Below are positions 20,627 through 40,592 of a DNA stretch of 53,755 bases, piece after piece (within the stretch, counting starts at the first letter, position 1; each line of letters starts with the position of its first letter). A program made the translations under genes and the position numbers. The stretch is taken from assembly GCA_946414345.1 (NCBI GenBank), contig CAMKOB010000005.1, positions 1 through 53,755 on the forward strand, in the 5' to 3' direction. The notes below the pieces were generated by a model. The model did not search any database. It was not told where the DNA came from and saw only the letters and a program-made list of their open reading frames with translations. This DNA is from an uncultured Candidatus Saccharibacteria bacterium. GTDB lineage: Bacteria; Patescibacteriota; Saccharimonadia; Saccharimonadales; Saccharimonadaceae.

Positions 20627-21430
20627 TTAGTCAAGGTTGACCAGATAGTTGATTTTGGCAGAAGCGCGAGCTTCATCGTCTTTTATGGGAAGAGTTTCGC
20701 GCGAGGAATAATCTTTAAAGATACTTAGAGCATCTTTAATAGGCCCATCGTAAATCGGTTCAAGGTCATAAACACTCCAAAGAATAATGCGAATATCTCC
20801 GTGATGTGTTGCATAATAATTGATAGCTTCAGTAGTGGCACGCACAAATTCTTGTTCGGTCTCTTTGGTGTGACGCCAGGTTCGTTTGCCCAAGAAATGC
20901 TCTGTAACCGTGGGCGAAGTCGCAATCATTAAGAATAATGATTTGTAGTTGTATTTTTTTAGCATAGAAACAAGAATTTCTTCCATAGATGGATCTAATA
21001 AGGTGACATCTAAAATAATGTCGTAGCCAGCTTTGATCAACTCTGTTAATATAATAAACATCATGATGGTACTAAATTCATCAGTCATTTTACGAAGATC
21101 TGCTTCACCATAGAAATCCTTGATCTCTTGACAATGCGGATGATATTCTACAAAGCGACGAGCAGCAACTAATATTGGATTAGTTTTATGCCTTTCGCAA
21201 TATTTGGTCGCTGCGGGAAGAATTTGGGTTGTTTTGCCAGAGCCGGATAACCCTGCGATACGAATGAAATAATGGTTTTTGGTAGCCGAGGCCGTAAAGT
21301 CTTTTAGAGCTTGTTGTGCCACTCTTGGATATTCTTCTATTTTTACCTGCCACTCTGGTTTTACTTGGCTAGGCCAGTGAGCTTTCATGTAAGCGATAAC
21401 TTTTTCTAATTCCGAATTACTTTGAGGCAT
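20627..21430 (-). CDS. Zeta-toxin-like P-loop kinase
   Basis: 267 aa. A Walker A motif IAGLSGSGKTTQ is followed by RRFVEYHPHCQEIKDFYG and AGYDIILDVTLLDPSM, the order seen in zeta toxins, kinases that phosphorylate UDP-N-acetylglucosamine, or in related P-loop kinases. About 60 extra residues precede the P-loop. There is no epsilon-type antitoxin next to it; the start lies 25 bp inside the end of the lipid kinase gene, and the operon also holds rpoD. A house-keeping nucleotide or sugar kinase is an alternative. The ribosome-binding site is AAAGGA. The family is moderately sure, the toxin role is not. Confidence 0.6.
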   Translation of the reverse strand: MPQSNSELEKVIAYMKAHWPSQVKPEWQVKIEEYPRVAQQALKDFTASATKNHYFIRIAGLSGSGKTTQILPAATKYCERHKTNPILVAARRFVEYHPHCQEIKDFYGEADLRKMTDEFSTIMMFIILTELIKAGYDIILDVTLLDPSMEEILVSMLKKYNYKSLFLMIATSPTVTEHFLGKRTWRHTKETEQEFVRATTEAINYYATHHGDIRIILWSVYDLEPIYDGPIKDALSIFKDYSSRETLPIKDDEARASAKINYLVNLD

Positions 21431-22434
21431 TTCTTGGGGTCCTTTCTGATTTCGATTGTTTTAACATCTGTAAAAGTACGGTATTCGCCTTCGCACTGAA
21501 GCGCAATAGTGGCCGGTTTGTCAAATATGAGAGTATCGCCGGTCGTGTCTCGCCCCGGCGTGCGCTTCAATATACTCCGCGCCATTAGAATAAACAGCCT
21601 TGGAAAGCTGATAGTCTTCTCTGTTTCGCTACGAAAAACATCTGGTTTTAGATAGTCATTGCCCCCTTTCATGACGCGGGACATCGATTTGCCATTGACG
21701 GCGGCATAATCGGAAGTTTTATGAGGCTGGGGCTTGCCGTTAATCTTGAAATCAGGAATAAAGATTTTTTTGTGGCGGTTTTTAAAATACCATTTGGCGA
21801 GTTGAAGATATGAGCGCCAGGAGCTCTTTCGACCTTTTTGCATTTGTTTGCGAATTTTAGGGTCGTCAAAAATTGCAACAGCTTCGGCGGTCATACCGAT
21901 AGTTACGTAACATGCGGCGTAGCGCCAATGTGTGCCATCGATGATGATGTCGAGAGGATAAAAATTACTATGGCGGGTCCTGGTCGGAACGGTCTCGCCT
22001 TGGGCTGCGTCCGCTCGGCCCGTCGCCACGGGCGAGCGGCGCTCATCCTCGCCTTGCCAGGCTCCGGAGGCCCTTCGGCGAGACATTCCGGCCACCCGCC
22101 ATAGTAATTTATCGGCGGTTAGCATACCGAGGGTACGGGCGAGGTCGTTGAAGTTGCCGTATGGCAAAACGGCGAGGGTGACGTCTTTACCGGATTTTAA
22201 GATGGCGTTAACAGTGATGGAAGCAGTAGCATCACCGCCGGCCGCGATGGCGATATCACCATTTTCTAGACATTTAGAAAGCATGGAGACATTTTTATCA
22301 AAATCATTGGATTGACTGACGTCATATTTGCCAATCGTGCAAGATTGCAGGTTTGGGAGTTTGGCAAGGAACTCATCTTTGACACGCACGTAATTCGATG
22401 AACGCTTGTTGTAAACAACAAAGATGCGTTGCAT
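21406..22434 (-). CDS. Diacylglycerol kinase-family lipid kinase with in-frame palindromic insertion
   Basis: 342 aa. The DAGK catalytic fold is shown by FVVYNKRSSNY, AIAAGGDATASITVNA (GGDAT in place of the usual GGDGT) and LPYGNFNDLARTLG. The protein should phosphorylate a lipid or sphingoid/isoprenoid alcohol. Residues about 109-157, from the end of DKLLWRVAG to just before NFYPLDIIIDG, are Arg/Gly/Ala-rich and encoded by the GC-rich palindromic element at 21962-22110, while both flanks read as ordinary family sequence. The reading frame stays open through the element. The gene begins 2 nt after the pilin-like gene and overlaps the zeta-like gene. Whether the enzyme works with the insert is unknown. 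Confidence 0.8.
   Translation of the reverse strand: MQRIFVVYNKRSSNYVRVKDEFLAKLPNLQSCTIGKYDVSQSNDFDKNVSMLSKCLENGDIAIAAGGDATASITVNAILKSGKDVTLAVLPYGNFNDLARTLGMLTADKLLWRVAGMSRRRASGAWQGEDERRSPVATGRADAAQGETVPTRTRHSNFYPLDIIIDGTHWRYAACYVTIGMTAEAVAIFDDPKIRKQMQKGRKSSWRSYLQLAKWYFKNRHKKIFIPDFKINGKPQPHKTSDYAAVNGKSMSRVMKGGNDYLKPDVFRSETEKTISFPRLFILMARSILKRTPGRDTTGDTLIFDKPATIALQCEGEYRTFTDVKTIEIRKDPKKCLKVIRN
21962..22110. repeat. 149-bp GC-rich palindromic element inside a coding sequence
   Basis: Perfect 17-bp inverted termini (AAATTACTATGGCGGGT at 21962-21978; its complement at 22094-22110) bound the element. Inside, GTCTCGCC (21992-21999) pairs with GGCGAGAC (22077-22084), and CCGCTCG-G-CCCGT pairs with ACGGG-CGAGCGG (22011-22039). 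It is far richer in GC than the host gene and adds about 49 codons in frame. It resembles Rickettsia palindromic elements in behaviour, not in sequence. Relatives lie at 29528-29584 and 40501-40592, sharing an ATRGCGGG-YCTG motif at the left end. Confidence 0.8.
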
Positions 22435-36575: not shown

Positions 36576-36588
36576 ACACACGAGATAG

Positions 36589-36615
36589 AAAACCCCGGGC
36601 GTCGCCCGGGGTTTT
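36589..36615. terminator. Bidirectional intrinsic terminator
   Basis: AAAACCCCGGGCG pairs with CGCCCGGGGTTTT, giving T-runs on both strands. It lies between the convergent lipoprotein and small-exporter genes. Confidence 0.9.
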
Positions 36616-36625
36616 CCCTTGTCTT

Positions 36626-40500: not shown

Positions 40501-40592
40501 TCATAGCGGGGGTTCTGCCGGCTGTTCTCCTCCCCCAAAATTGGTAAACAATTTTGGGGGACCCCCTCCACAGCCGTCACCTCCGCGGATAG
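40501..40592. repeat. GC-rich palindromic element between rpsA and the acyl-CoA synthetase gene
   Basis: A 12-bp perfect stem (40531-40542 with 40550-40561, built on CCCCCAAAATT) sits inside an outer pairing CGGCTGT (40519-40525) with ACAGCCG (40570-40576). The left end CATAGCGGGGGTTCTGCCGG matches the ends of the elements at 21962 and 29528, and the right end GATAGTTATTT resembles ATAGTAATTT of the 21962 element. It abuts the rpsA stop codon and may act as its transcript end, though no T-run follows. Confidence 0.65.

Follow-up and report, generated by a model that had tools for sequence, protein, structure and literature searches.

Short palindromic repeats of gut Saccharibacteria, carried in frame by a lipid kinase gene and other housekeeping genes

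A hitherto unreported family of short, GC-rich, hairpin-forming repeats, here called type A, is spread through gut Saccharibacteria. One copy interrupts a lipid kinase gene of the window, i.e. the whole stretch of 53,755 nucleotides from an uncultured Candidatus Saccharibacteria bacterium that was analyzed in the current study. We consider it likely that this segment belongs to a short, non-autonomous, probably selfish palindromic family of the kind set out below. The literature searched, with preprints and most subscription papers outside its coverage, did not describe elements of this kind in Saccharibacteria, in agreement with the preliminary description of this DNA (made from the letters alone), which knew of no case for the lineage. 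The features of the window copy, all on the minus strand, are as follows.

21406..22434, minus strand: lipid kinase host gene, 342 aa, DAGK_cat, DgkB-like (ORF, Pfam, PDB, motifs)
21962..22110, minus strand: palindromic element, best read as composite, two arms and a core in the inter-domain linker (inverted-repeat search, folding, orthologues)
21995..22078, minus strand: type A core, full match to covariance model R1, a dispersed structured repeat
22001-22069, minus strand: 69-nt profile core within the type A core (covariance model R1)
22094..22110, minus strand: gene-5' outer arm, 17 nt, AAATTACTATGGCGGGT (inverted-repeat search; differs between copies)
21962..21978, minus strand: gene-3' outer arm, 17 nt, ACCCGCCATAGTAATTT (inverted-repeat search)
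22090..22101, minus strand: type B-like 5' end, TGGCGGGTGGCC (shared with type B copies here and at other sites: L144, L167, L061, others)
21971..21985, minus strand: type B-like 3' end, GACCAGGACCCGCCA (comparison with type B copies)

The reading of the kinase ORF showed no stop across the palindromic segment. Its product was assigned to DAGK_cat (PF00781, E = 2.5e-11) and is weakly similar to DgkB (PDB 2qv7, E = 2e-4), and the invariant GGDAT and GNFNDL motifs are unbroken, confirming the in-frame position in a lipid kinase that had been proposed. In the AlphaFold2 model, pLDDT values below 50 were found only inside the insert (residues 129-148), and the rest of the kinase fold was mostly confident (mean pLDDT 83.7). 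The insert is thus predicted to be disordered, with the kinase fold otherwise kept.

Each of the two arms (21962-21978 and 22094-22110) measures 17 nt; they are 100% complementary and separated by 115 nt, so that the coordinates and perfect 17-bp termini given earlier were correct. This nested palindrome ranked first among the inverted repeats of the whole window (spacing up to 180 nt). Its folding energy was -101 kcal/mol (z = -8.7 for the gene strand and -7.6 for the other strand), and none of 200 shuffles was as stable. Two short perfect hairpins elsewhere in the window (36588-36616 and 40531-40561, GC-rich or G-tract, with arms of 14 and 13 bp) are possibly terminators. The segment had been described as 149 bp adding about 49 residues, but 149 is not a multiple of three and is not the exact insertion length; the window linker of 56 aa exceeds that of orthologues with 15–20 aa by about 38 aa (about 114 nt). 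A search of the genome for the 17-bp terminus had been suggested; the window's own genome holds no copy of the element besides this one.

The window copy is best read, from sequence comparison, as a composite, with a type A core enclosed by ends that belong to a second family, type B. Since the outer arms carry TGGCGGGTGGCC and GACCAGGACCCGCCA, ends known from type B, on either side of the type A core, this core was likely inserted into an older type B palindrome. The view of one small element stands as regards a dispersed element, but not as regards a single family. The nearest relative, L090, a Saccharibacteria genome from water-buffalo abomasum, carries the same insert with 33 nt more in the apical loop. 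This 33-nt insertion in the core (L090:1012-1113) is in frame, and pieces similar to 'CCCCTTGGGACG' occur in L212 and L229. The cores of the window and L090 are identical at 75/75 positions, whereas the surrounding gene is 81% identical. Such identity exceeds the expectation for a dead single-copy selfish insert, so that the explanation also needs constraint on the core, or recombination between strains.

The type A core, i.e. the central 75–85 nt, is a GC-rich dispersed repeat in a genus of ruminant-gut Saccharibacteria. In genomes of the same genus, blastn gave as many as 10 matches per genome (best E = 3e-35), which were partial and covered the middle of the 149-bp segment. Apart from L090, most genomes with a match in the kinase also came from ruminant guts. 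At most 15 candidates in each genome were scored with an RNA model (covariance model R1), so that counts end at 15; this model detected the core in 40 of 43 sampled genus members, with copy numbers from 0 to at least 15 per genome. Among 295 genomes of the order, it was found in six other genomes of the same family and in none of other families, and a phylum sample of 287 genomes gave three further weak single matches. The copies in related genomes support the preliminary description in its main point, namely a small dispersed element that is tolerated in frame as are Rickettsia palindromic elements, a claim for which the lack of any such copies had been named as the refutation.

The core has a covarying, branched fold. 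In an alignment of 55 copies, 21 pairs were predicted, and 98.1% of the cells were paired. Double compensatory changes were detected in 14 of these 21 pairs, with 190 double-change cells observed vs 57 in shuffles, a number which none of 500 shuffles reached.

For 127 distinct copies the flanks were read, and a copy was counted as genic when it lay inside an ORF of at least 180 aa. All 99 genic copies were in frame and without a stop, the core being sense in 51 and antisense in 48, and all six frame classes were used (33/24/18/11/9/4). According to NCBIfam, the host genes include those for TrmD, MnmA (two sites), LepA, LeuS, ValS, PolA, DnaX, UvrB, UvrC, LigA, ObgE, Der, TruB, TsaD, QueA, GatB and TatD, and where orthologues were compared, the genic copies sat in variable linkers. 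No gene broken by a copy was seen among the 127 copies read, which together with the kept frame indicates strong selection for the frame. The other 28 copies are intergenic, often between convergent genes. Intergenic copies (L037, L042, L043, L230, L233, L245 and L278 are examples) are often found immediately beyond the end of a gene, and several of them separate convergent genes; at such places the hairpin could be a terminator.

The kinase linker was measured between the FNDLxRTL and YPL[ED] motifs in about 72 distinct Saccharibacteria sequences. It has 15–20 aa in most orthologues and 28–77 aa in 25 of the approximately 72, always in frame, and the enlarged linkers contain palindromes of several kinds. 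Type A cores are present in the window, L090, L005, L118, L121, L147 and also L129; type B palindromes, with the ends TGGRCGGGTGAC and GGCAGGACCCGYCCA, in L061, L112, L163, L144, L167 and others; a third kind in L132, L100 and L097; and further kinds besides. In a kinase tree built without the linker, the insert state changed at least 13 times, and L115 (filled) was sister to L109 (empty). Type B, of about 68–91 bp, occurs both in the kinase linker and elsewhere, and the carriers listed also include L199, L216, L228, L253, L256 and L274. Other, different inserts were seen at the same permissive sites of TrmD (L183, L182, L186, L188, L190) and of the kinase (L111, in addition to the three carriers of the third kind), indicating that several families use the same protein loops. 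Short linker sequences in L216 (MnmA) and L311 (TrmD) resemble scars of a lost element.

The arms of type A copies pair within each copy (mean alignment score 15.6 vs a null mean of 3.2 and a null maximum of 7.5), and end at a near-fixed distance from the profile core (median 28 nt on the left and 21 nt on the right). They are about 17–20 nt long and unrelated between copies, with a mean pairwise outer-arm identity of 0.29 and only 5 of 2556 pairs reaching at least 80%. The 17-bp terminus, which had been proposed as a search key, is therefore no mark of the family; what recurs is the core (22001-22069 in the window). The GC content is 77% in the core, 43% in the arms and 46% in the flanks, i.e. 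the arms have the base composition of the host. An interpretation of the arms as transposon terminal repeats was rejected, as they are unrelated between copies. Carriage of the arms from a donor copy was rejected as well, because three G004 copies (L039 and two in L040) have identical cores and unrelated arms.

Empty sites show where an arm can come from. In 21 empty TrmD orthologues the site reads like PTPVGEIWNQEMAREFAKDA-HYIILCP and has 20–29 aa (20–25 in 19 of them), vs mostly 51 aa in filled ones. The native gene-5' arm encodes AREFA, and the core and an inverted copy of the arm are added before HYIILCP, giving 31 more residues. This native arm lies gene-5' in either core orientation. Between L170-L173 and L174-L176, L179 and L181, the arm position is the same and the core orientation opposite, suggesting that the core flips between inverted arms. 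For TatD (L010, L055), the sequence suggests that the gene-3' arm, which encodes a conserved-looking LVAIG before EVGLDYH, is probably the native one. The expectation that orthologues lack exactly this segment was thus right as regards the absence of the insert, but the boundaries differ and one of the two arms can already belong to the host. The intergenic L144 copy lies in a diverged spacer, and two relatives have neither of its arms (net about 125 nt), so that a native arm is not evident at every site. As regards target-site duplication, TrmD has an inverted duplicate in place of a direct one, and L144 has a possible 6-nt direct repeat. Inverted duplication of the target is evident in TrmD and, by comparison of sequences, likely in several genes, and is not general beyond doubt.

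From these arms, we infer that the inverted arm would arise at insertion through fold-back copying: the strand carrying the core may fold on its own stem, copy about 20 nt of flank and rejoin the chromosome, a form of template switching. Genes would tolerate the insertions since stops are frequently lacking in the core and the extra residues make up a disordered loop at the protein surface, and selection would retain insertions that are in frame in permissive loops. The position of the native TrmD arm on the gene-5' side in both core orientations is not predicted by a model strictly primed from the core strand, unless cores also flip. Where the arms of a copy differ, G.U outnumbers A.C on the core strand (79 vs 24) in both gene orientations, and this was counted against the best explanation. 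Copying errors were rejected as the source of this bias, because it goes with the core strand whichever the orientation, although the native arm of TrmD stays gene-5'. It is put forward only tentatively, as a possibility somewhat short of an even chance, that type A represents a new mode of spread, in which a structured core folds back, copies about 20 nt of its target and leaves an inverted duplication with wobble-type differences, needing no dedicated transposase and seeding disordered in-frame loops in housekeeping proteins genus-wide.

Among 18 mostly element-rich genomes, a reverse transcriptase was detected in eight and a Y1 transposase (PF01797) in one, with a weak match. Both were rejected as common mobilizers, being present in too few of the genomes, and no enzyme tracked the element in this search, which was for these two. 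Phage and plasmid records gave no match to the element, and the lone pattern match in a viral contig was due to chance and lay in an ordinary ORF of the virus; phages, plasmids and viral contigs were therefore rejected as carriers.

A short, palindromic, dispersed and non-coding element could also be a conventional MITE, with a Y1/REP-type or DDE transposase encoded elsewhere and the arms as ordinary terminal inverted repeats, and the L144 copy does resemble insertion of a whole palindrome. This origin is unlikely, as terminal repeats should be common to the copies, whereas type A arms are copy-specific, and the Y1 transposase, the transposase type searched for, is absent from 17 of the 18 genomes, its single match being weak. 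The conserved, branched and covarying fold and the 75-nt core identical in L090 would also suit an element that is removed at the RNA level (as a mini-intron or ribozyme), or bypassed by the ribosome like Magnusiomyces byp elements, leaving the protein unchanged. We hold this to be very unlikely: all 99 of 99 genic copies are in frame and stop-free, which counts against splicing or bypass, as neither needs the frame; half of the genic copies are antisense, so that the mRNA would be out of reach of a strand-specific RNA activity; and the window copy has no Rfam match, its best score (14.6 bits) being below the gathering score of 35.

The core might instead be a functional RNA or DNA signal used by the host (e.g. 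an intergenic terminator, or a nucleoid or recombination site) and not selfish. Its conservation in a genome with a single copy, the pairing-preserving G.U bias of the arms and the several intergenic copies between convergent genes are consistent with such a role. It is nevertheless very improbable, because copy numbers vary from 0 to at least 15 among sampled genus members, the sites are not common to most species (at least 13 changes in the kinase alone), and most copies are genic, in either orientation. Ordinary variation in protein linkers, or an assembly artefact, has next to no probability. The kinase linker does differ in length among orthologues, but one structured core is found again and again in unrelated genes, in both orientations and all frames, and in dozens of separate assemblies; recurrence across many genes refutes this explanation.

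We know of in-frame, protein-coding palindromes in bacteria mainly from Rickettsiales. The type A repeats add an apparently unrelated and structurally distinct set in Patescibacteria, indicating that repeats of small size are able to alter essential proteins time and again where the genome is less than 1 Mb. They provide more than 100 sites, some with empty orthologues, for testing the origin of such repeats, and their inverted arms, which differ from copy to copy, hint at a route of insertion other than ordinary transposition.

Rickettsia palindromic elements (RPE; Ogata et al. 2000, 2002), as summarized in a later account (PMC10969869), are short (about 150 bp) and palindromic, form several families, lie in frame in housekeeping genes and carry a conserved peptide. 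Type A likewise belongs to several families of short palindromes that lie in frame in unrelated housekeeping genes and are apparently tolerated, in a host with a small genome. Many copies are present in relatives, as in RPE, with one in the window's own genome. Unlike RPE, type A has no preferred frame (six frame classes, sense 51 and antisense 48), and it has copy-specific arms of host composition, a covarying branched core and a host of a different phylum. Five insert peptides gave no NCBIfam or Pfam match up to E = 10, in a search made at the peptide level, with HMMER filters that drop weak matches. Because of this and of the lack of a conserved reading frame, type A was not filed as RPE.

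With MITEs, REP/BIME and similar small bacterial repeats (PMC10969869), type A shares its non-autonomous, short and palindromic nature and its many copies; it differs in having no common terminal repeats, in being mostly genic and not intergenic, and in that no associated Y1 transposase was found. Coding palindromes of nematomorph mitochondria are perfect repeats without a common core, for which template switching has been proposed as the origin (PMC6649704); type A resembles them in having inverted repeats within coding sequence, but consists of a conserved core between imperfect arms. The byp elements of Magnusiomyces, as mentioned in the same source, are palindromic genic inserts that are bypassed and left untranslated. 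Type A is also a palindromic insert in genes, but its genic copies, unlike byp elements, are always in frame and stop-free.
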